Shown here piece by piece: positions 16,216-31,862 of a stretch of DNA of 34,498 nt; within the stretch, counting starts at the first letter, position 1; every line of letters begins with the position of its first letter. Source of the DNA: Deltaproteobacteria bacterium (GTDB lineage Bacteria > Desulfobacterota > Syntrophia > Syntrophales > UBA2210); assembly GCA_018399535.1 (NCBI GenBank), contig JAGYOR010000007.1, positions 1-34,498 of the forward strand. Reading direction: 5' to 3'. The position numbers and the translations under genes were made by a program. Under the pieces are notes generated by a model. The model searched no databases. It was not told where the DNA came from and saw nothing but the letters and a program-made list of their open reading frames with translations.

Positions 16216-17055
16216 CTATTGCAGTTCGAGAAGTTTGGAACGGGCAGACTCTGCGGCTGTCGTACCGGGGAAATCACTCACCACGCCCTGCAGGAGAAGC
16301 CGGGCACTGGACGTATCCCCGAGTTTTTCAAAGGACAACGCCTGCTTCAAAAGGGAATTAGGAACCCTGCTTCCCTGTGGATAATCCTGAATCACCTTTT
16401 GGTACTCCAGGATCGCCTGCTCGTATTCCCCTTCAAAGTAATAACTTTCCCCTATCCAGAACTGCGCGTTGTCGGAATATTCCGTTTTCGGGAACAACTC
16501 CAGGAATTTTCTGAATTTATTTCGTGAATCTGTGTAATTCCCTTCCTTGAACAGCCCGTAAGCCTCTGAATACATCGTTTCACTGTCCCGGGGCTTTTCG
16601 GGCGCGGGAGCCGACGTCTTCTTCGCGGCCCGAGGCCGGTCTTTCACTATTCCCAGCTCGGCTTCAATAGACTGGATCCTCGCTTCAATATCTTTCAGCA
16701 CTTCACGAGTATCGCCGGTTTCGAGATCAAGCGACCCGGCGCCTTCTTGCAACGCCCGCGCCTGCACTTCCTCGAGAGCGCCCCGCACCCGCTGGAGCTC
16801 ATCCCGGAGTTGAATAATGTCGGCGTTTACATCCGCCTGGTTCTTGCGCACGGACTTTACGGCATCTTCGATCTCGCGCCTGCTCTCGATTTCCTGTTCC
16901 AGGGATTCCTGGAACCCCGACATCGTGTTCTGAACAGCTGTTATTTTAGCGTCGAGATTTCGGCTTACATGCCGCAACTCATCCTGCGTGGCGCACCCGC
17001 CTGCCACGAACACCACCGCAAGCAGCGCCGCTGTAACAAGAACCTTCGATTTCAC
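16216..17055 (-). CDS. ybgF: Tol-Pal system protein YbgF/CpoB
   Basis: Lipobox VAGGC; coiled-coil N-part; C-terminal TPRs SETMYSEAYGLFKEGNYTDSRNKFRKFLELFPKTEYSDNAQFWIGESYYFEGEYEQAILEYQKVIQDYPQGSRVPNSLLKQALSFEKLGD. Confidence 0.95.
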   Translation of the reverse strand: MKSKVLVTAALLAVVFVAGGCATQDELRHVSRNLDAKITAVQNTMSGFQESLEQEIESRREIEDAVKSVRKNQADVNADIIQLRDELQRVRGALEEVQARALQEGAGSLDLETGDTREVLKDIEARIQSIEAELGIVKDRPRAAKKTSAPAPEKPRDSETMYSEAYGLFKEGNYTDSRNKFRKFLELFPKTEYSDNAQFWIGESYYFEGEYEQAILEYQKVIQDYPQGSRVPNSLLKQALSFEKLGDTSSARLLLQGVVSDFPGTTAAESARSKLLELQ

Positions 17056-17074
17056 CGATCATACGCTCCGACTG

Positions 17075-17662
17075 TTATTTATACCAACTGGTCGGGTAAA
17101 TGTTGAATTCAGCTCTCCTGTTTTTCGCCCAGGCTTCTTCGTTACTTCTCGGATCAACAGGGTTTTCCTCACCATAACTCAACGTGCTCAGACGGTCGGC
17201 ATCGACACCAAGTTTTACAAGATAATCTCTGGCTGCCGTTGCACGCCTTTCGCCCAGCGCGAGGTTATATTCGGCGGTACCCCGCTCGTCACAATGACCC
17301 TCAACAATGGCATTAAAATCCTTGTTTTTCAGCAACCATGCTCCGACCTCGTCGAGAATTGACCGTGCCTGCAACTTCAGGTCGTAACGGTCGAAATCAA
17401 AATGGATCGGCCGTTTCGCAAAAGCCTGAGCTTCGTTTACCTGCTTTTCCCACAATGCTTTCGCTCTCGCCTTCGCAGCTTCATCATCGGCTTTCTTGGC
17501 CGGCGCAGGAGCCGGCGCCTTCACCTCGGCGGCTTTTTCTTGCGCAGGCGGCGGCGTCTCCTTAACCGCTGTTTCCTTGAAACAGTAACATCCGCTCAGG
17601 ACAAAAACCAGCACCGTAGAAACAACGACCAACCTCCCCAAAATCTGCCAGTTCCGTTTCAT
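17075..17662 (-). CDS. pal: Peptidoglycan-associated lipoprotein Pal
   Basis: Lipobox FVLSGC; IHFDFDRYDLK, VEGHCDERGTAEYNLALGERRATAARDYLVKLGVDADRLSTLSYGEENP (OmpA-C). Confidence 0.97.
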   Translation of the reverse strand: MKRNWQILGRLVVVSTVLVFVLSGCYCFKETAVKETPPPAQEKAAEVKAPAPAPAKKADDEAAKARAKALWEKQVNEAQAFAKRPIHFDFDRYDLKLQARSILDEVGAWLLKNKDFNAIVEGHCDERGTAEYNLALGERRATAARDYLVKLGVDADRLSTLSYGEENPVDPRSNEEAWAKNRRAEFNIYPTSWYK

Positions 17663-17784
17663 TCCTTACCTCCTCTATTCCTCGTCTGGATGCGTTTTCG
17701 TGGGGGAATTCCGCGACAAGCAACGCAAAAAAACACCTCCCCCCCGTGGATCTCACCTGCGACGGCGTCATACGACATGCACCG

Positions 17785-19197
17785 TCAATACAACTTGAGC
17801 GCCGGAGACCACGAGGGCTGCTTCACTGAATCGAACCCCCCGATATCCTCAATTGTTCGGAAGTTTAAACCATTTGCATTAATAATGCAAATTTTTTCAG
17901 AATTGGAACGTCGAAGAGAAAAAGCGATGTACCTGCCATCGGGCGACCAGGAGGGACTGAGACAGTCACCATTCTGAAAGGTAAGTTGCTTGAAATTGGA
18001 GCCATCCGGTTCGATGGTAAACAGCTGGAATCGCCCGTCCACCGAGCTTTCAAAAACGATGGCATCCCCTGTCGGCGACCAGCGTGGCGAGGTGTTGTAG
18101 GAACCTTCGAATGTTATCCGTCGAACATTACCGCCGTCCGCATCCATGATGAAAAGGTGCGGTGCGCCGGACCTGTTCGACACGAAAACAATCTCCGAGG
18201 CATCGGGCGACCAGCGCGGTGACACGTCTATTGATGGACTGCGGGTAATTCTTCGCGTTTGCTTTGTGGCTACGTTGACCGCGTAGATGTCATCGTAACC
18301 GTCCTTGCTGAAAACACAAAGAATTTCCTTGCCATCGGGCGACCAGGACGAGGGCATGTTAAGACCGGCATATTCAGCAAAGACCGTCCTTTCTCTCGAT
18401 TCAAGATCGAGAATATATGCATCGGGGTTACCCCTCATGTACGAGAGAAAGGCAATCATCTTCCCGTCCGGCGACCAGCGGGGAAACAACGTCAAGGCCC
18501 CGTAGTCGGTCAACCGCGTCCAGCCGGAACCGTCATAATCAATCATAACCAGTTCGGATTTATTGTCCTTCTTGCCCACAAAAGCGATTCGCGTGTTGAA
18601 AACACCCCGTTCGCCCGTCAGAGCAAGCATCACCTCCTCGGCGAATTTCATGACCATTGTCTTTTTATCTTCGGGACGGCCCCAGTAGCGCTTACCCGTA
18701 ATCAGCGCACCCCTGACAACGTCAAAAAGCCTGAATTCCACCGCCAGTCGGCCGTCCTCGATTTCGAGTCCGCCCTTGACAAGAAAGTCAACACCAATGG
18801 AAAGCCAGTCGCCGAAACGTATCTCGGGAGCGATTATTCCCGCGCCTGCGGGGTCTTCCAAGAAAGCCGAACGTTCGATTACCCTGAAAAACCCGGTGAT
18901 ATCAAGCATCCTGCCCATTTCATCCGCAAACCACTCCCCTTCCTCCTTCGGATCTCCGTTTTCGTCCAGAGTCTTAAAATCCTGGACTGCAATGGGAAAC
19001 CGCTGGAAAGCGGGGGCGTCGATATCGATATATACCTTGCTCCATGCCGGAGAACCCCATGAAACGAGCAACCCCAGGACCACCGTCACAAGTATGCCGG
19101 CGCGGACAAACCGCCTTGTCGCGTTATCGTGTACGCGGCCGAAGCGCACCACGTTTCTCCGGTTTTTTTCGTTTCGTGATGCCATCGTGTGTCCCAT
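17785..19197 (-). CDS. tolB: Tol-Pal translocation protein TolB
   Basis: N-domain plus repeated WSPDGKxIAF-type beta-propeller motifs; in tol cluster. Confidence 0.97.
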   Translation of the reverse strand: MGHTMASRNEKNRRNVVRFGRVHDNATRRFVRAGILVTVVLGLLVSWGSPAWSKVYIDIDAPAFQRFPIAVQDFKTLDENGDPKEEGEWFADEMGRMLDITGFFRVIERSAFLEDPAGAGIIAPEIRFGDWLSIGVDFLVKGGLEIEDGRLAVEFRLFDVVRGALITGKRYWGRPEDKKTMVMKFAEEVMLALTGERGVFNTRIAFVGKKDNKSELVMIDYDGSGWTRLTDYGALTLFPRWSPDGKMIAFLSYMRGNPDAYILDLESRERTVFAEYAGLNMPSSWSPDGKEILCVFSKDGYDDIYAVNVATKQTRRITRSPSIDVSPRWSPDASEIVFVSNRSGAPHLFIMDADGGNVRRITFEGSYNTSPRWSPTGDAIVFESSVDGRFQLFTIEPDGSNFKQLTFQNGDCLSPSWSPDGRYIAFSLRRSNSEKICIINANGLNFRTIEDIGGFDSVKQPSWSPALKLY

Positions 19198-19291
19198 CTC
19201 CCTTTTTCGTGTTTATCCCGACTTCGCGACAGGCTCCTGAACGTCTGTTCCGTCTTACGGCATTCATTCCCGCTGAAAAAATGTCGCCTGC

Positions 19292-20041
19292 TCATTGGTA
19301 ATCGGAAGGACGGAACCGGATGCCCACTTCGATATACTGAGCATTGAGCCAGGCCGGCAATGCGGGAAACGGCGCCGCTTTTTTGACTGCGCTCTCCGCC
19401 GACTCGTCAAAACGCCTGTTCCCCGAACGTTCTTCAAAATCCAGGCGCTTTATAGACCCGTCACGCGCGATGGTAACCGCAAGAACCGCTTCGAGATTCC
19501 GATCAGCCAGGATTGTCTCGGGGAGAGCCCACCTCTCCTGTATCCTGCCCCAGAGTTCCGTATAATAGGCGTTCATCCTGTCGGTGCCCGCGTCGCCCGC
19601 CGCGGTTTGAGCCGGCCCTGGAGGACCCGGCTTCTGAGCCGTTTCTGAAGGAGATGCCGCCGTGACCCTCTTTCGAATCTGACGAATCGCCTCGTCAAGT
19701 TCACCTGAAGTTTCACGACGCTGAACTCGTATACGCTCGATCGGCGCCGCCATGGCGACATCGACGGGTCTTCGTACCGCCACCGCGGTCTCGCGGTCCT
19801 CGACGCCTATTTCCTCGCCGAAGGGGATGCCGACGCTCTGTGCCTCTTCACTCGACGCGGGTGACATGGTTACCAGATCGACTGTGTAGGCCGGCACGAA
19901 CGTCCGTTTCGGAGCGGGAAGAGAAGGTGAAAAAAAAACGACGAACAGCACCAAAGCGTGCAGCAAGGCCGAAAGTACAACCATGCTGTTCAGGCCGGCG
20001 CTTTCGTCACGCTGTTTTCTCAGCTGCTCAACCAGGGACAT
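19292..20041 (-). CDS. tolA: TolA-like/TonB-family protein (TonB C-terminal domain)
   Basis: Single N-terminal TM (VVLSALLHALVLFVVFFSPSLP), Pro-rich linker, C-terminal WGRIQERWALPE...LEAVLAVTIARDGSIKRLDFEERSGNRRFDESAESAVKKAAPFPALP. Confidence 0.88.
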   Translation of the reverse strand: MSLVEQLRKQRDESAGLNSMVVLSALLHALVLFVVFFSPSLPAPKRTFVPAYTVDLVTMSPASSEEAQSVGIPFGEEIGVEDRETAVAVRRPVDVAMAAPIERIRVQRRETSGELDEAIRQIRKRVTAASPSETAQKPGPPGPAQTAAGDAGTDRMNAYYTELWGRIQERWALPETILADRNLEAVLAVTIARDGSIKRLDFEERSGNRRFDESAESAVKKAAPFPALPAWLNAQYIEVGIRFRPSDYQ

Positions 20042-20048
20042 CCGTCTC

Positions 20049-20465
20049 TTATTCCTTCGGCGGATCCGTTATCATTCCCAACCGATCCACTCCGGCCTTG
20101 CGTACTTCCGACATGACCTGCACCACGAAACCATACGGGACCGTTTCATCCGCCCGCAGGTAAAGATCCCGGTCGATCCTGGCGGCAAATATGCTTTCCA
20201 GTTTCGTGTTCAGGTCGTCTAGCGTAGCCTTGTATCGATTGACGAATATTTCCCGGTCGGCGTTGATCGTCAACACCAGCTTTTCTTCCCCCACGTCGAC
20301 CGGCCGTGCCGTGACCCTGGGAAGATTCACGTCAATTCCCATTTGCAGCATTGGGGCGGTAACCATAAAGATCAGCAACAGAACAAGAACGACATCAACC
20401 AGGGGAACGACATTGATGTCCGCCATCGCCTTTCTCCGTTCACGGATATTTTTCCTGTATTTCAT
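20049..20465 (-). CDS. tolR: TolR / ExbD family protein
   Basis: DINVVPLVDVVLVLLLIFMVTAPMLQMGIDVNLPRV. Confidence 0.96.
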   Translation of the reverse strand: MKYRKNIRERRKAMADINVVPLVDVVLVLLLIFMVTAPMLQMGIDVNLPRVTARPVDVGEEKLVLTINADREIFVNRYKATLDDLNTKLESIFAARIDRDLYLRADETVPYGFVVQVMSEVRKAGVDRLGMITDPPKE

Positions 20466-21226
20466 GGTCGTTGCAGTTTCCGCACGTAGAACCGTTCGAT
20501 GATATTGAGGAACTCCGCCGAGAAGTTTTCTGTTTCAACGGTTATGGCCCGTATTTTCGCCAGGTAGTAATTATAAAAAATAACGGCGGGTATCGCCGCC
20601 GCGAGTCCGGCCGCCGTTGCCACGAGCGCCTCCGAAATACCCGGCGCCACTACGGAAAGCGTGGCCGCGCCCCTGGCGCCGATACCCTGAAACGAATTCA
20701 TTATGCCCCAGACCGTCCCGTACAGGCCGATAAAAGGACAAGCGCTCCCTGTTGTCGCCAGGAATACGAGGAAACGCTCCAGCCTGGTCATTTCATTGTC
20801 GCAGGCCCGGTTCAGCGTTCGTTCTATATTGTCCATTCCTCTGAATTCCAGAGCGGCCGACTCATCTTCGCCGGCAACACCCGGATCGTCACCTTCGCGC
20901 TTCGCCTCGGCCAGCCTGCCGAGTTCCGTATATCCGGCCCTGAACACCTCGGCGATCGTCGAATGACGGAATTTTTTCGACTCGGGGAATATGGCGGACA
21001 GCTTGTTGCTTCTCATGTATACATCAAGAAACATGTCGTTTTCTTTTCTCGTCCGCCTGATCACTCTGAATTTCACCAGGATCACCGCCCATGAAACAAC
21101 CGAAAACATGAGCAGCAACAGCAGGACGAACTGAACCATGGGCCCGGCATCAAAAATCATCTCAAGCATATTGCCGTGAAAAGGCTTTGCGATGTCGGCC
21201 GTCGTAACCGCCAGTACTTCGTTCAC
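20462..21226 (-). CDS. tolQ: TolQ / MotA-ExbB family proton channel protein
   Basis: VQFVLLLLLMFSVVSWAVILVKF, FLATTGSACPFIGLYGTVWGIMNSFQGIGARGAATLSVVAPGISEALVATAAGLAAAIPAVIFYNY; start set to GTG 21226, 7 nt after AAGGAG, instead of the ORF-track 21289. Confidence 0.95.
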   Translation of the reverse strand: MNEVLAVTTADIAKPFHGNMLEMIFDAGPMVQFVLLLLLMFSVVSWAVILVKFRVIRRTRKENDMFLDVYMRSNKLSAIFPESKKFRHSTIAEVFRAGYTELGRLAEAKREGDDPGVAGEDESAALEFRGMDNIERTLNRACDNEMTRLERFLVFLATTGSACPFIGLYGTVWGIMNSFQGIGARGAATLSVVAPGISEALVATAAGLAAAIPAVIFYNYYLAKIRAITVETENFSAEFLNIIERFYVRKLQRP

Positions 21227-21260
21227 CACGAGTCTCCTTGTGTGTTTGTTTTGACCTTCG

Positions 21261-21289
21261 TTTGTAATGTAATTCAGTAACCCTGTCAA
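21261..21289 (-). promoter_or_regulatory. Candidate sigma70 promoter for the tol operon
   Basis: Minus strand TTGACA (21289-21284), 17-nt spacer, TACAAA (21266-21261). Confidence 0.5.
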
Positions 21290-23696: not shown

Positions 23697-24242
23697 TCAG
23701 TTGAGCAAGCGCTCTTCCTCCGAGAATATGTCGCCCACGTGCAGGTCCGATCTGAAACAATCGATGACGAGCTTCATGTCATGATCCGCACCAGGCGCCA
23801 GAATCGTTCTCGTCAATTCGTGAACCCGTTCTTCCTCGATTATCTTTTCTTCCACAGAAGCATCAAAATCCGCGTCGCCGCGATTGAATCGCACCACGTG
23901 AATCAGCTCGTGCATAGCGATGTACTCCATGAGAGGCATCAGTTTCACAAAGGAGGTGCTCCGCTCGACGGCGTGAAGTATACGCCCGTCCTGAAGGCAT
24001 ATCTTAAAAAAATGAAAATTCTCCGGGTTATTGTCTTCTCCGTGTTTTCGATACGCGTAGCGGCACAGGTGAGCAAACGCCCGATCGTCCACCTCGTGAT
24101 CGGCAAGATAAAAACGGGTCTGCACGTCATACCGGTTGTTCCTGAACCCGCCCCGCCCGAGGTTGAAATAACGTTCCGCCAGGGCCTCTGCGCGGTTGAA
24201 AGACCATCCGACGACGGCCATCTGCTCACGGTTGAAATACAT
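23697..24242 (-). CDS. Uncharacterised HExxH zincin-like protein
   Basis: 181 aa with MHELIHVVRFNRGDADFDASVEEKIIEEERVHELT; HELIH encoded at 23898-23912; no clear TM segment or signal peptide. Confidence 0.7.
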   Translation of the reverse strand: MYFNREQMAVVGWSFNRAEALAERYFNLGRGGFRNNRYDVQTRFYLADHEVDDRAFAHLCRYAYRKHGEDNNPENFHFFKICLQDGRILHAVERSTSFVKLMPLMEYIAMHELIHVVRFNRGDADFDASVEEKIIEEERVHELTRTILAPGADHDMKLVIDCFRSDLHVGDIFSEEERLLN

Positions 24243-24332: not shown

Positions 24333-25865
24333 TTACGGCAACGGAATATTCGAGAGCATGTACTTCAGATCCTTGTCTTCGAATCGAATGGCCAGGCCGA
24401 AGAAAGGCGACGAATTGCCGTGCTTGCTTATAAAATCGTCCCAGCCCGCCGTCAGGTACACATTTTTAAAGAGCCGGTAATCAGCGTAGGCTTTAAGATG
24501 CGTGCGACGTTCATCGTCGAAATCGAAGGCCTCGAATGTGAACTGCAGGGCATCTTTGAAGGCGAAATAATCAACACCGACCCCGCCGGTGGACTCGAAA
24601 ATACCGCCTCGCAGAACGATGTCCCTGAAACGCTTGCCGATCTGGGCGTCGAAAAGCACTCCGCTTTTGTCATATTCTTCATAACGAACCGTCCTGCCGG
24701 TTGAGTAATCGGTCCGCTCGGTGACGGTTCTTTTTCCGCGAGGGTCGGCCACTATGCCCAGGGCGTAGAACATGTCTTCCCGCGGCTGGATCCGCACGGT
24801 AAAATAGGACTTCGCTTTGTCCGTCCGGGCGAGATATTCACCCCGGTAAGCAAGGTAGGTCCTGAACTGCTCCGTCTTGGAAACGTAACGGTTTATACCC
24901 TCCATGCTGCGGTCGATGCTTTTCAGACCCCGGTTGATGTTGTCCACGGTCTCGTCCTCGTAGACCAGTTTACCGATGGTTCCCTCACCGGAGCTGATCT
25001 GGGCGGTAACTTTTTGGAGGGACTCGACAGTCGACGTCAGGTTGTCGAAAAGTTCCCTGTTTTCTACAAGCTGGCCCAGTGTTCCCTCACCCCGGTTGAT
25101 TCGTTCGGTGATGTCGCCCAGAGCCGCCACGGATCGATTGAGGTTGTCGAACACATCCCTGTTTTCTACAAGCTGGCCGATCGTCCCTTCACCGTGGTTG
25201 ATCTTGTCGGAAATTTCACTCAGGGAAACAAACGTCCGCTGAATTTCATGGGATGCTTCCGTCAGGCTTTCCGCCAGTCGGCTGAAACTTTCATCGCTTT
25301 TCTCGACCACCCGGTTCAAGTTCACCGTCAAATCACGGGTATTTTCCACGATGGCGCGCAGGTTGGCTTCTCCTTCATCGCCTCCCATGACCTGCCTCAG
25401 GGAGGCGGTTACGGTCTTAATGTCGTTGGCAATGTTTCCCAGCTCCCGGAGCATCTTGTCCATATCGGCGGTCGCTTCCACATGATCGATTTCGCCGTCT
25501 TCGGGTATGTATCCATATTCCTCGCTGCCCGGTTTGATATCGACGTATTTGTCGCCCAGGATGCCATGGGTTTTGAGCGAGGCGATCACGTCCTTCTCCA
25601 GTTTGACCGATGGAAGGATACGCAAGGTTACCACGGCCCGTCCATCTTCAAGAACGATGCTTTCGACCCGTCCGACTTCCACGCCGGCGATCTGCACGGC
25701 CGCGTCCCGCTCCAGGCCGGCCACATTGTCGAAGGCAACCTTTACGGGATAGCCCTTTCGAATGCCGAATCCGTACTCTCCCACCCTGAAGGACATGTAG
25801 CCAAGAATGATCATGGCCGCCAGGACAAAAACCCCTACCTTCGCTTCGGTACTTATGGAGCGCAT
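24333..25865 (-). CDS. mlaD: MlaD/MCE family protein with helical repeats and a putative C-terminal beta-barrel domain
   Basis: N-terminal TM VGVFVLAAMIILGYMSF, MCE domain YPVKVAFDNVAGLERDAAVQIAGVEVGRVESIVL...LKTHGILGDKYVDIKPGS, three GEGTIGQLVENRDVFDNL repeats, C-terminal ~175 aa of alternating amphipathic strands ending ...FFGLAIRFEDKDLKYMLSNIPLP; start set to ATG 25865. Confidence 0.9.
   Translation of the reverse strand: MRSISTEAKVGVFVLAAMIILGYMSFRVGEYGFGIRKGYPVKVAFDNVAGLERDAAVQIAGVEVGRVESIVLEDGRAVVTLRILPSVKLEKDVIASLKTHGILGDKYVDIKPGSEEYGYIPEDGEIDHVEATADMDKMLRELGNIANDIKTVTASLRQVMGGDEGEANLRAIVENTRDLTVNLNRVVEKSDESFSRLAESLTEASHEIQRTFVSLSEISDKINHGEGTIGQLVENRDVFDNLNRSVAALGDITERINRGEGTLGQLVENRELFDNLTSTVESLQKVTAQISSGEGTIGKLVYEDETVDNINRGLKSIDRSMEGINRYVSKTEQFRTYLAYRGEYLARTDKAKSYFTVRIQPREDMFYALGIVADPRGKRTVTERTDYSTGRTVRYEEYDKSGVLFDAQIGKRFRDIVLRGGIFESTGGVGVDYFAFKDALQFTFEAFDFDDERRTHLKAYADYRLFKNVYLTAGWDDFISKHGNSSPFFGLAIRFEDKDLKYMLSNIPLP
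24894..25199 (-). repeat. Three in-frame 102-bp (34-aa) tandem repeats within mlaD
   Basis: NHGEGTIGQLVENRDVFDNLNRSVAALGDITERI / NRGEGTLGQLVENRELFDNLTSTVESLQKVTAQI / SSGEGTIGKLVYEDETVDNINRGLKSIDRSMEGI. Confidence 0.92.
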
Positions 25866-25954
25866 GCCGATCCCCCGATACAATTCTTACGTTTGTCGCA
25901 TATCACCGCCAGCGACGCAACTTAATCCTTCCTCTGCGGCGTTCGGAGAGGCCG

Positions 25955-26701
25955 CTACATGATGCTGATAGGCCCCTCGAGACTGCCGGCCATAAACTGC
26001 TGCACCACGGGGTTTTCCGAGTTTTTCACTTCCTCCGGGGCGCCGAATTCAATAATTTTACCGTCATACAGCATAGCAACCTGGTGACCGATGGAAAAAA
26101 TCGACTTTATGTCGTGGCTGATAACCACGCAGGTCAAATTGTATTTCCGCTGCGTTTCAAAAATCAGCCGGTCGATGGCCTCGGTCATGACAGGGTCGAG
26201 CCCCGTGGTCGGCTCGTCGAAAAGAACGATCTGCGGCTGCATGGCCATGGCCCGCGCCAGGCCTACCCTCTTTTTCATACCGCCCGACAACTCGGACGGC
26301 ATTTTCCCCTCAATGCCCGAAAGACCAACGTCCTGCAACCGCGAACGGACCCGCTCCCTTATCTCGGGTTCCTTCATCCGCGTGTGCTCGCGAAGGGGAA
26401 AGGCCACGTTTTCAAACACGTTCATGGAATCGAACAGCGCCGCCTCCTGGAAGAGCATGCCGAACTTCTTGCGCGTTTCGTTCAGGTCCCGGTCGTTCAT
26501 GGCAGTGATGTCGTCGCCGTCCACGAGAACCTTTCCTTGGTCAGGCTTGATGAGGCCGATAATGTGTTTTAAAAGCACGCTCTTGCCGCCGCCGGATCGA
26601 CCGATGATGATCGTGGTCTTTCCTTCCTCGATCGTGAGGTTCAGGCCGTCCAGTACTTTCTGGGTTTTAAACGACTTGGAAATGTCAACCAGTTGAATCA
26701 T
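25955..26701 (-). CDS. mlaF: ABC transporter ATP-binding protein MlaF
   Basis: [23 protein letters not shown] (Walker A), [34 protein letters not shown]; Mla-type adjacency. Confidence 0.95.
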
Positions 26702-26728: not shown

Positions 26729-27508
26729 TCAGAACATCAGGGCCGTCAGGAAATAATCGCTGATCAGTATAGTGATGGCGGCAATAACCACGGCCTCGGT
26801 GGTCGCCTTTCCGACGCCCTCGGCCCCGCCGGTGGTGTTGAACCCCTTGTAACATCCCACGAACGAGAGTATGAGGCCGAAAAAGGCGGCCTTGACGAGA
26901 CCGTTATAAATATCCGATAACTGCACAAAGGTCGTCATGTTCTTCATGAACATGCCCTTGTTGATATCCAGGATGGGTACGCCGACGAAATAGGCCCCCA
27001 CCACCCCGACAAAAACGGAAACCACGGTAAGCACGGGCAGCATGGTGATGCCGGCGATCACCCGGGGAACAATAAGGGTTTTTACCGGGTTGGCGGCCAT
27101 GACGTAAAGGGCGTCGATCTGTTCCGTCACCCGCATGGTGCCCAGTTCAGCCGCCATTGCCGATCCCGCCCGGGCCGTCACCATGAGTGCCGTCAGAACC
27201 GGTCCCAGTTCGCGAGCCATGGCCAGGGCTACCGTTGACCCGACCAGCGTCTCAGCGCTGAACATGCGGAACCCGTAGCATATCTGCAGCGTCATAACCA
27301 TTCCCGTAAAAAGTCCCGTGAGAACCACAACGAAGATGGACTTGACCCCCACGAATTCCATCTGCTTGACTATGAGTCGCATCTTGAAAGGAGGCCGCAC
27401 CGCCCAGGCCACCACCGACAGGAACAGCAGGAGCATCCTTCCCATCTCTTCCAGTGCGGAAAAAATCGATCTGCCGAACCGGTCGAAAAACGCGATCACA
27501 CTGTTCAT
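26729..27508 (-). CDS. mlaE: ABC transporter permease MlaE
   Basis: ARELGPVLTALMVTARAGSAMAAELGTMRVTEQIDALYVMAANPVKTLIVPRVIA and GFNTTGGAEGVGKATTEAVV are MlaE/YrbE signatures. Confidence 0.96.
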   Translation of the reverse strand: MNSVIAFFDRFGRSIFSALEEMGRMLLLFLSVVAWAVRPPFKMRLIVKQMEFVGVKSIFVVVLTGLFTGMVMTLQICYGFRMFSAETLVGSTVALAMARELGPVLTALMVTARAGSAMAAELGTMRVTEQIDALYVMAANPVKTLIVPRVIAGITMLPVLTVVSVFVGVVGAYFVGVPILDINKGMFMKNMTTFVQLSDIYNGLVKAAFFGLILSFVGCYKGFNTTGGAEGVGKATTEAVVIAAITILISDYFLTALMF

Positions 27509-27570: not shown

Positions 27571-28656
27571 TCACAGGGGACCTTTTTTCTTCCGGTGAAC
27601 CTCGAGGGAATACTGAATAATCCGGTCCATGAGATCGGACTGGCTGATGCCCGACTCGGCCGCCTGGTGAAAAAGCACCGTCGACGGCGTCATGCCGGGC
27701 AGGCTGTTCGGCTCGAGCACCACTACTTCACCGTCGTCCTTCACAAACATGTCGATCCGCGCGTACACCTGCAGCCCCAGCGTTATATAGGCCTTTCGGG
27801 CCGTTTCCCGTACCTTCTCGAGAACATCAGGCGGCAGGCGCGCGGGGGTCTTGTTTTCGCCCTGGCCGTAGAGAAACTTGTCTTCCAGCGACAGGATATC
27901 CGCCGTGGGAATCGTTTCAGACGGCGTCAGTGCCTTTGGATCATCCGTTCCTATGACGCCGCAGGTGACCTCCATGCCGGCAATGAACTCCTCCACGAGC
28001 ACTTCGTTGTCCCACTGCATGGCGGCTTCCACCGCCGCGACCGCTTCTTCGCGGGCGTCGACCCTCGTCACCGCCGTCGAGCATCCCTCGCGGGTGGGCT
28101 TCACCACGCAGGGCAGACCTATATTCAGCTCCATTCGTTCGACGACGCCTTCCGGGTCGGCAGTCCATTCCGCGCGCGGCACCACCACTGTTTTCGGCAC
28201 GCCGATCCCCTCCAGGGAAAGCAGTCGTCGTGCGACGTACTTGTTCATGCCCAACGCCGAAGCCAGCACGCCCGAACCCACGTAGGGAATGCCGAGCAGT
28301 TCCAGCAGCCCCTGGAAACAACCATCCTCGCCGTACTTGCCGTGAAGGGCGATATAAACGACGTCCACCTCGTTCTTCAGTTCCTCGTAGGGAATACGCC
28401 GCGCCTCGCCGTCAAGGTCTTCTTCGATATCGGCGGTGGCGTTTCTCATGAGATGCTTGAGGGGAATCAGCCAGAGCCCACCCCTGCCATCCATGAAAAC
28501 GGGGATTGGCTTGTAGCGACCCTTCGGAAGTTTTCCAAAAATGTTCCGGCCGCTTTCGAGAGAAATTTCCCGTTCCGATGAGATCCCCCCCATAACCACG
28601 CCGACCCGTATTATGGAAGGCGAAGAATCGGCCTGTTCCATCAAAGCCATAAGCAA
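27571..28656 (-). CDS. D-alanine--D-alanine ligase family protein (paralog A, nearer mla)
   Basis: GGISSEREISLESGRNIF, ALHGKYGEDGCFQGLLELLGIPYVGSGVLASALGMNK, YARIDMF...VVVLEPNSLPGMTPS; ORF-track start is TTG, ATG 28650 or 28641 equally possible. Confidence 0.92.
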   Translation of the reverse strand: MLMALMEQADSSPSIIRVGVVMGGISSEREISLESGRNIFGKLPKGRYKPIPVFMDGRGGLWLIPLKHLMRNATADIEEDLDGEARRIPYEELKNEVDVVYIALHGKYGEDGCFQGLLELLGIPYVGSGVLASALGMNKYVARRLLSLEGIGVPKTVVVPRAEWTADPEGVVERMELNIGLPCVVKPTREGCSTAVTRVDAREEAVAAVEAAMQWDNEVLVEEFIAGMEVTCGVIGTDDPKALTPSETIPTADILSLEDKFLYGQGENKTPARLPPDVLEKVRETARKAYITLGLQVYARIDMFVKDDGEVVVLEPNSLPGMTPSTVLFHQAAESGISQSDLMDRIIQYSLEVHRKKKGPL

Positions 28657-28693
28657 CCATCCGATTATTATTATTACGTATCAGGCATATACT

Positions 28694-28720
28694 GAGAAAA
28701 AAGAACCTTGTAAAGCTCTT
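28694..28720 (-). terminator. Terminator/attenuator-like hairpin between the two ddl paralogs
   Basis: Minus strand AAGAGCTT-TACA-AGGTTCTT (8-bp stem including G-U pairs) followed by TTTTCTC. Confidence 0.45.
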
Positions 28721-28788
28721 TTCCCTGTATACGGCAATCATCCCCGGAGTCCCGGCGCCGTTGCAGAAAATCATATTCAGGTTGTTTA

Positions 28789-29856
28789 TCAGAGCGGACC
28801 CCGTTTCGCGCCGTGAACAACGAGCGAAATATCGATCAAGCGGGATATAATGTCCGAGGGGAACAGGCCCGCTTCCGCGGCCTGTTCAAAAAAAAATGAC
28901 GAAGGCGCCATGCCCGAAGAAGAATTGGGGTCGGTGATCACCACCTCGCCGCTGTCAAGGTAAAATCCGTCGATCCGGGCATAACATCGGAAGCCCAGTG
29001 AACGGTAGGCCCGCACCACTTCCTTTTTTATAATTTCCACCGCCCTGCCTGGTATGGACTTGGGTGGCGTAAATTTGCGGCACATTCCGGGCATGTATTT
29101 GTCGTCATACGTAAAAAAAGCGCTCCGGGGCTGAATTTCCGTCACCGCCAGTGGACGGGGACCGTCATCCTCGTCGATCACGATGGAAGAAAACTCGGCG
29201 CCCTCGAGATACTCCTCGACAAGCACGGTTCTGTCCCACGTGAAAGCGCTTTCGATACCGTCGGCCAGGGACTCCGGATCCCGCACGATGGTAACGCCGA
29301 CACTGGACCCTTCCCGAAGGGGCTTCGTCACCAGCGGGAACCCGAAAGAATCGGCCAGTTTCTTCTCCGTCTGCCGACGGTCGCGCGACCATTCCTCTTC
29401 GCTCACGGTCATACTCCGGGGCACGCGGATACCCGATTCACGAAGCAGCCTCTGCTGAACATGCTTGTCCATCCCCAGTGCGGACGCGAGTACTCCCGAT
29501 CCCGTATAGGGAATTCGGAGAATTTCCAGCAGTCCCTGAATGCAACCGTCATCGCCGTACTTTCCGTGCAGTGCTATAAAGACTACATCGATCCTGTCGC
29601 GCAGGTCCTCGAAGGCGATCCGCTCCGCCTCTCCCCGGAGGCGCTCAATGATATCAACGGTGGTATTCTGGGATACGAGTTTCCAGGGCAGTATCCAGAG
29701 CCCGGCCTCGGCGTCCATGAAGACCGGCAACGGGTCGAAACGGTCGCGGTCCAGGTTGTCGTATACATTGCGTCCGCTGTTGAGCGACACTTCCTTCTCC
29801 GAGGACATTCCGCCGAACAGCACCCCTACTTTTATTTTTTCTGTCATGGCTTCCAT
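28789..29856 (-). CDS. D-alanine--D-alanine ligase family protein (paralog B, next to alr)
   Basis: FGGMSSEKEVSLNSGRNVY, ALHGKYGDDGCIQGLLEILRIPYTGSGVLASALGMDKHV, KPLREGSSVGV, YARIDGFYLDSGEVVITDPNSSSGM. Confidence 0.9.
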   Translation of the reverse strand: MEAMTEKIKVGVLFGGMSSEKEVSLNSGRNVYDNLDRDRFDPLPVFMDAEAGLWILPWKLVSQNTTVDIIERLRGEAERIAFEDLRDRIDVVFIALHGKYGDDGCIQGLLEILRIPYTGSGVLASALGMDKHVQQRLLRESGIRVPRSMTVSEEEWSRDRRQTEKKLADSFGFPLVTKPLREGSSVGVTIVRDPESLADGIESAFTWDRTVLVEEYLEGAEFSSIVIDEDDGPRPLAVTEIQPRSAFFTYDDKYMPGMCRKFTPPKSIPGRAVEIIKKEVVRAYRSLGFRCYARIDGFYLDSGEVVITDPNSSSGMAPSSFFFEQAAEAGLFPSDIISRLIDISLVVHGAKRGPL

Positions 29857-29906: not shown

Positions 29907-31862
29907 TTACAAATCCCAGGAAAAAGTCACCCCGCTGTTGGGAAAGATCCAGTCCCGGGTTCCCAGTCGAAGGGTAACCGCTCTTCCCCGATCAACGGTT
30001 ACCTCGGGGGTATGATGTTTGCCGGCGAAAAAGCTGGTCTCGCGGACATTGCGGATTCCCGTACCGGCATAGTCGAAGCATATCTCGAGTCCCCTGGTCG
30101 GATAAACCAGGTACACGGAGAACGTCCTGCTCGTCTTGAGTTTCTTGGTGACGATTTCAATTTCAACCTTTACGTCCCGATTCAATTTGTCCCGAAGTTC
30201 ATCCCCGCCGCACCATACCTCGAGCCCGCGGTCGGTGACCTCCCGGCGCCTGACGGCCGCGTCTCGGCCGTCGATGCGGACACTGTCGACCATGAAATCT
30301 TGTTCGGGAACTTCCCCCGGCGGTGACGGCAGGAGCCAGCGGTATTCGCATCGTTCCTCGTCGAAAAGCGACGAAAGCTGCTCGTTGTTAAGCGCGCAAC
30401 CGATGAGAAAGTGCTGATGGCGCAGTGTTTTCATATATTCCACGTGCGTCGTGACACTGAAATAATCCCGCGCTTCCTTTTCGTCAGCGACCTTGTCCCT
30501 GTCGGCCTCGCGCACGCGAACCCGGTATTTGAATCCCGTTCGGAGCTCCAGCGGTCGGTTTTCTTTACCAAAGAGCGTCTCGAACATTTCATAAAAAATC
30601 GCGTCGCCCATCTCGGCGTCGGAAGCGCGGGCCCGGAAGCAGCTTCGTATAATATTGTCGATGCGGGCGAGGGAACGCTCCTCATCGGGAAGAAATACAC
30701 GACGCAGCCGGGGCTCGACCGAATCGGTCTCGCCCCGGTTGAGAAAAACGCGGGGCGCGCGTTTGCCCAGGGCACACGCAACCTCGTAGCTGATCGTCCC
30801 CGACTTTCGCGCTATCTCGTCGGCGGTTATGACGTCGTCACCCTGCTTTCCCATGAGCACCACCTCGTCTCCCGTCGCGCAGCCGGGCACGTCGGTGACG
30901 TCGAGATTACACATGTCCATCGATACGCGGCCCACGACGGGAACGCGGCGACCCCGCACGAGCGCCTCTCCCCTGTTGGACAGGACGAATCCGTAACCGT
31001 CGCCGTACCCGACCGGAATGGTCGCGATCCTGGCGGGTCCGCCCGTCCGATAGGTCCTTCCATACCCGACGCTGTAGCCTGCAGGAACATCCTTCAACAG
31101 GACGATCGTGGTTTTGAAGGTCATAACAGGGGCGAGATCTACCGTTGATTTCCTTTCCGGTCCGGGATAAATGCCGTACGTCATGATGCCGGGACGAATC
31201 AGGTCAAGGTGAAACTCCGGAAAGTTGATGACCCCGCCGCTGTTTGCCAGGTGCTTCACGGGAACAGTGATTCCTTTCCGCTCCAGGGTTGAAAGCAGCC
31301 CTTGGAAAAGACGCCCCTGTTGATAATTATATTCGTCGCCGGCAGACTCGCTGAGGGAGAGATGCGAGAAAATACCTTCGATACTTATATGTTCGAGTCC
31401 CTGAATCTCTTCGATGACGGAAACCGCGTCATCATACAGGACACCGCCACGGCCCATGCCCGTATCGATCTCCACGTGCACGTCCATTGACGTGCCGCGG
31501 CCGGCGAGACGGCGGGAAAGTTCCCGGGCGAAAACCGGATCGGAAACACAGGGCACCAGGGAATACTTGATGATATCGTCGATCTCGGCCGTTGTGGAAG
31601 GACTGAGAATAATTATCGGCGCTTCGATGCCGCTTACCCGCAGCTGGACGCCCTCGTCGGCATTGGCCACTCCGAGGCATGACACGCCGTTTTTCAGTGC
31701 CGCCCGGGATATTTCAATGGCGCCGTGCCCGTAAGCGTCCGCCTTGACCACCTGCATGACGCGGACATCGCTCCCCACCAGTCGGCGGATCACGTTCCAG
31801 TTATGCCTGAAGTTGTCCAAGTCGATCTCGACCCAGTTTCTGTAAGCCGGTGTATTCGACAT
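29907..31862 (-). CDS. alr: Alanine racemase with ~270-aa C-terminal extension
   Basis: VEIDLDNFRHNW, VVKADAYGHGA (PLP Lys), IDTGMGRGG, SVGYGRTY, GRVSMDMCNLDVT (catalytic Tyr region replaced in context by MDMCNLD), YEVACALGKRAPRV; one continuous 651-aa frame, canonical Alr ends near residue 375. Confidence 0.93.
   Translation of the reverse strand: MSNTPAYRNWVEIDLDNFRHNWNVIRRLVGSDVRVMQVVKADAYGHGAIEISRAALKNGVSCLGVANADEGVQLRVSGIEAPIIILSPSTTAEIDDIIKYSLVPCVSDPVFARELSRRLAGRGTSMDVHVEIDTGMGRGGVLYDDAVSVIEEIQGLEHISIEGIFSHLSLSESAGDEYNYQQGRLFQGLLSTLERKGITVPVKHLANSGGVINFPEFHLDLIRPGIMTYGIYPGPERKSTVDLAPVMTFKTTIVLLKDVPAGYSVGYGRTYRTGGPARIATIPVGYGDGYGFVLSNRGEALVRGRRVPVVGRVSMDMCNLDVTDVPGCATGDEVVLMGKQGDDVITADEIARKSGTISYEVACALGKRAPRVFLNRGETDSVEPRLRRVFLPDEERSLARIDNIIRSCFRARASDAEMGDAIFYEMFETLFGKENRPLELRTGFKYRVRVREADRDKVADEKEARDYFSVTTHVEYMKTLRHQHFLIGCALNNEQLSSLFDEERCEYRWLLPSPPGEVPEQDFMVDSVRIDGRDAAVRRREVTDRGLEVWCGGDELRDKLNRDVKVEIEIVTKKLKTSRTFSVYLVYPTRGLEICFDYAGTGIRNVRETSFFAGKHHTPEVTVDRGRAVTLRLGTRDWIFPNSGVTFSWDL

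Follow-up and report, generated by a model that had tools for sequence, protein, structure and literature searches.

An elongated MlaD that carries a barrel and forms part of an MlaEFD bridge was described in Veillonella by Grasekamp et al. 2023 (PMC10665443). The barrel of the Veillonella MlaD comprises ten strands, and fractionation data assign the ends of the protein to the inner and the outer membrane (PMC10665443). Barrel-type MlaD is widespread in diderms, among them some Proteobacteria and related phyla, and tends to co-occur with the absence of MlaA and MlaC (PMC10665443). The same paper points out that a phospholipid would not fit through so narrow a barrel, and that no hexameric ring formed by such barrels has so far been described (PMC10665443). 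Whether phospholipid crosses the periplasm by a bridge or by a shuttle is debated, a question that bears on the pattern reported below. Our literature search, mostly of papers outside subscription, found no paper on a bridge MlaEFD in Desulfobacterota.

The locus analysed here lies in a window (the whole stretch of DNA under analysis) of 34,498 nucleotides from a Syntrophales-like Desulfobacterota genome. The original prediction of a bridge-type system in a proteobacterium-like genome is supported, except that it is not a first case, as such systems have already been published for Proteobacteria and related phyla (PMC10665443). The MlaEFD bridge architecture is thus known, and the locus adds one more case; the new part is the comparative pattern of bridge and shuttle in the order.

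The operon and the architecture of MlaD

The genes mlaE, mlaF and mlaD adjoin in this order on the minus strand (Table 1), and profile matches bear out that mlaF and mlaE next to mlaD encode the ABC transporter. The mlaD reading frame, originally given without a strand, is confirmed and belongs to the minus strand. Translation could also begin at an in-frame TTG at 25883 (24333-25883, 516 aa); homologues begin at the internal ATG 25865, in agreement with the original coordinates, and a G-rich, SD-like stretch is located 5' of this ATG. An origin of mlaD by frameshift or chimeric fusion is ruled out, because the architecture is common to ~70 distinct full-length homologues.

Two tandem D-Ala-D-Ala ligase genes (27571-29856) are located directly upstream of mlaE, and are tandem in several close relatives as well. 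The alanine racemase gene (29907-31862) possesses a C-terminal extension of ~270 aa without Pfam match, and alr occurs near mlaE in many homologous loci of several phyla. The window furthermore contains a complete Tol-Pal cluster (16216-21289) of tolQ, tolR, a TonB/TolA-like gene, tolB, a Pal-like lipoprotein gene and ybgF. The gene of a protein with a metalloprotease-like HELIH motif is kept beside the barrel mlaD in close kin within the order, and beside the deletion remnants described below.

Table 1. Positions of the features in the window; the last row refers to loci of other genomes of the order.
Feature	Positions	Strand	Details and basis
HELIH-motif protein	23697..24242	-	181 aa; without Pfam or NCBIfam match
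mlaD, long form with barrel	24333..25865	-	510 aa from ATG
Short helix past last strand	24348..24377	-	conserved FxDxDxK at the junction; AF2, alignment
Candidate BAM-type beta-signal, last strand	24381..24404	-	FFGLAIRF (G..phi.[FYW]); alignment of homologues
Predicted C-terminal beta-barrel of MlaD	24378..24863	-	ten amphipathic strands and one polar hairpin; AlphaFold, face analysis
Helical linker of MlaD, proposed hexameric periplasmic tunnel	24864..25475	-	~204 aa; AF2 helices, low confidence
Three GEGT(I/L)G repeats in the linker	24972..25193	-	34-residue period; residues 231, 265, 299 of 516
Single MCE domain of MlaD (Pfam MlaD)	25527..25757	-	residues 43-119, E 1.6e-20
N-terminal transmembrane helix of MlaD	25779..25850	-	residues 6-29 of 510; AF2 helix
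mlaF, ATPase	25955..26701	-	PRK11831 E 2.6e-70, under equivalog cut-off
mlaE, permease	26729..27508	-	PF02405 E 1.6e-80; TIGR00056 over cut-off
Barrel-end remnants of mlaD beside the HELIH gene	L141 3353-3550; L142 331-636; L143 1100-1231; L144 5898-6047		

The N-terminal part of MlaD consists of a transmembrane helix and one MCE domain, as had been predicted and as the AF2 helix and the Pfam MlaD match confirm. In Foldseek comparisons this MCE domain reaches a TMt of up to 0.90 against the MCE domain of E. coli MlaD (5uw8), and the protein scores 110.9 bits with the NCBI equivalog of E. coli-type MlaD (TIGR04430), below the cut-off of 135. Between MCE domain and barrel, 71 homologues possess a linker of 156-265 residues (mean 188). 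As one continuous helix, the linker would reach up to ~28 nm, enough for the periplasm. In long MlaD proteins lacking the barrel, the very C-terminus is formed by a conserved hydrophobic tail of the EQTPITVLGTIIGLFF type (L050, L069, L073, L074, L077, L081, L082 and others).

The barrel domain (~175 aa) is conserved in ~70 distinct full-length homologues from Desulfobacterota, Nitrospirota, Nitrospinota, Deferribacterota, Acidobacteriota and CSSED10-310. AlphaFold models the full protein (50 sequences) with a transmembrane helix, an MCE domain, a helical stretch of low confidence and a barrel of pLDDT 84-97. The barrel was also folded alone, because Foldseek with the whole protein returned MCE proteins only among the matches listed; this model (pLDDT 90.4, pTM 0.79) contains twelve strand segments. 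In the mean over 71 homologues, one face favours the membrane in ten of the twelve, and both faces are polar in segments four and five, so that these two are read as a loop hairpin and the barrel as ten-stranded. For the barrel, Foldseek ranks first a designed transmembrane barrel of ten strands (8uzl, with a TMt of 0.66 by target length and a weak E of 7.9e-4), and transmembrane barrels make up 44 of the best 50 matches, likewise with weak E-values. The beta-signal is found at the corresponding alignment position in 70 of 71 homologues, as against a mean of 18.5 and a maximum of 31 in shuffles, and the source genome encodes Omp85/BamA and TamB. By model and sequence pattern, the C-terminal domain is thus a predicted transmembrane beta-barrel of ten strands. 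The putative outer-membrane barrel of the original prediction is accordingly recovered in the AlphaFold monomer, with its dyad pattern and beta-signal, and a transmembrane barrel is modelled rather than a soluble, non-barrel domain. Searches of Pfam and PDB with the barrel sequence yielded neither a named family nor a solved structure. Fission into a barrel-less MlaD and a separate barrel gene beside it was also considered and rejected; no ORF outside the MlaD proteins matched the barrel profile in the fetched loci.

Bridge and shuttle operons in the source genome and its relatives

The genome-wide search for mlaC and mlaA proposed with the original prediction found neither MlaC (PF05494) nor MlaA (PF04333) in the whole source genome (2.06 Mb, 230 contigs, 96% complete); the positive controls E. 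coli and Caulobacter matched. MlaC is likewise missing from all five sampled members of the genus. Contig C112 of the source genome contains a second MCE locus (L115:5764-9424), which encodes a STAS-MlaE fusion, an ATPase, a 323-aa MCE protein and a PqiC-like lipoprotein (PF03886). Since its arrangement matches that of Mpc, the Mla-Pqi chimera of Brucella (PMC12436622), the source cell may hold two bridge-type systems.

Of 198 genomes sampled from the phylum, 35 possess the barrel. MlaC is present in 7/35 genomes with barrel versus 96/163 without, and MlaA in 6/35 versus 83/163. MlaC is accompanied by a short MlaD in four of the seven genomes with both barrel and MlaC, and by no MCE gene within the fetched stretch in the remaining three. 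The 149 genomes of the same order comprise 44 with the barrel only, 83 with MlaC only, 13 with both and 9 with neither, a near-exclusion with a Fisher p of 2e-17 that ignores shared ancestry. Three of the 13 barrel matches in genomes with both are remnants. The contrast is repeated within several families (e.g. f2, f3, f86, f87, f88, f90, f91, f93) and therefore does not reflect one split.

All 16 MlaC loci opened in the order, twelve from genomes with a barrel match as well and four from genomes without, contain MlaC beside its own separate short MlaD. The order MlaC loci are nearly always a run of mlaE, mlaF, mlaD, mlaC and mlaA, with gaps at contig ends. In the MlaE tree, the sampled MlaC-type operons group together (11 rows, support 100/100) and are separated from the barrel rows; the rows L036 ('short') and L072 ('long_nobarrel') are truncations at contig ends, not real architectures.

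Four genomes of the order (G206, G302, G305 and G247) possess the barrel coding region as fragments only. In G302, G305 and G247, ddl is followed by a piece of the final 50-113 codons of mlaD and then by the HELIH gene; the gap between ddl and the HELIH gene measures only 0.25-0.37 kb and lacks mlaE, mlaF and the greater part of mlaD. Further internal deletions are present in the mlaD fragments of G302 and G305. The fragment of G206 is still located 5' of the HELIH gene, but has a different gene upstream. Given these differing breakpoints, the remnants look like separate deletions. Misassembly may explain an individual draft genome, but is improbable as the cause of four differing junctions. 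The MlaEFDCA operon is present in G206, G302 and G305, and no MlaC is listed for G247; MlaC thus occurs in 3/4 remnant genomes versus 10/53 genomes with an intact barrel (p 0.03, on small numbers). The most economical interpretation is that the shuttle operon is able to take the place of the bridge. In-place deletion remnants of a bridge operon are unreported in the papers found by our literature search, which mostly covered papers outside subscription.

Separate MlaC operons and barrel remnants in shuttle genomes make bridge and shuttle look interchangeable. On balance we favour the view that the bridge MlaEFD and the shuttle MlaEFDCA are functionally interchangeable and have repeatedly replaced each other within one order, in that the shuttle would arrive, both would coexist and the bridge would be deleted in place, leaving remnants. 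Close relatives in this order possess one system or the other, some both and some the bridge remnants, and hence provide natural replacement pairs for tests of whether both systems serve the same function. The pattern agrees with the published view of the E. coli shuttle as a derived solution.

Proposed transport route and its alternatives

Very probably, the locus encodes an MlaEFD lipid transporter of the bridge type known from Veillonella parvula, with a hexameric tunnel, barrels inserted by BAM and phospholipid transit independent of MlaC and MlaA. Gene order, domains, the modelled barrel, the beta-signal, the absence of mlaC and mlaA and the alternation with the MlaC-type operon are shown by the present analysis; we infer the hexamer, the tunnel, the insertion into the outer membrane, the lipid cargo and the direction of transport. 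At the inner membrane, MlaF and MlaE would supply the power, and six MlaD subunits would form an MCE ring that extends as a helical tunnel through the periplasm. Each MlaD chain would end in a 10-strand barrel placed by BAM into the outer membrane; with ten strands, both barrel ends would face the periplasm, which a bridge requires. The barrels would fix the mouth of the tunnel to the outer membrane, and phospholipid would travel along the tunnel with no need of the two shuttle partners. The originally suggested Veillonella-type bridge MlaD, with a shuttle perhaps unnecessary, gains support from the barrel model, the absence of mlaC and mlaA and the location of MlaC in separate operons elsewhere.

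Alternatively, the barrel could be a mere anchor or spacer in the outer membrane that tethers the envelope, with no lipid passing between the membranes along MlaD. A 10-strand barrel too narrow for a phospholipid (PMC10665443) fits such a role, and the fairly uniform length of the linker (mean 188 residues) would be needed by a tether as well. This explanation is nevertheless unlikely: the operon retains a lipid ABC permease, an ATPase and a lipid-binding MCE domain, the alternative to it in other genomes is a full MlaEFDCA lipid system and not a tether, and Veillonella mla mutants exhibit lipid phenotypes (PMC10665443). Quite improbable is a soluble periplasmic beta domain in place of the outer-membrane barrel; the lack of any sequence match to a Pfam family or solved structure would suit it, against which stand the barrel model, the alternating membrane-facing residues, the beta-signal and the transmembrane barrels as nearest folds. 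Least probable of all, and barely credible, is a shuttle that still passes the lipid on, with an MlaC or MlaA encoded elsewhere in the genome or absent from the draft assembly (96% complete, 230 contigs), for although MlaC accompanies a barrel match in 13 order genomes (a remnant in three of them), MlaC occurs in 0/5 sampled genomes of the genus and in the order always adjoins its own short MlaD in the loci checked. The bridge-type transporter therefore remains the preferred reading.

Comparison with known systems

In architecture, the locus resembles MlaEFD of V. parvula with its three genes mlaE-mlaF-mlaD and without MlaA or MlaC. Both MlaD proteins possess a transmembrane helix, one MCE domain, long helices and a C-terminal 10-strand barrel (modelled here). 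The V. parvula MlaD is 419 aa long as compared to 510 aa here, where the linker GEGT repeats, the polar hairpin and the helix past the last strand are additional differences; the V. parvula locus is located beside tolC/tamB, the present one beside alr-ddl-ddl.

The six-component Mla system of E. coli (MlaA, MlaFEDB, MlaC) has the permease, ATPase and MCE families in common with this locus. It possesses a short MlaD (~150-185 aa) without linker or barrel, the soluble shuttle MlaC and the outer-membrane lipoprotein MlaA, in contrast to the 510-aa MlaD here with neither partner. In the order studied here the six-component type occupies a separate operon, and its MlaE rows form a separate clade.

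Mpc of Brucella (PMC12436622) is likewise a bridge-type MCE needle with MlaE and MlaF, but reaches the outer membrane via a PqiC-like lipoprotein instead of a barrel. The barrel-less long MlaD shares the MCE domain and the GEGT-repeat linker with the protein described here, the barrel being replaced by the short hydrophobic tail of the EQTPITVLGTIIGLFF type.
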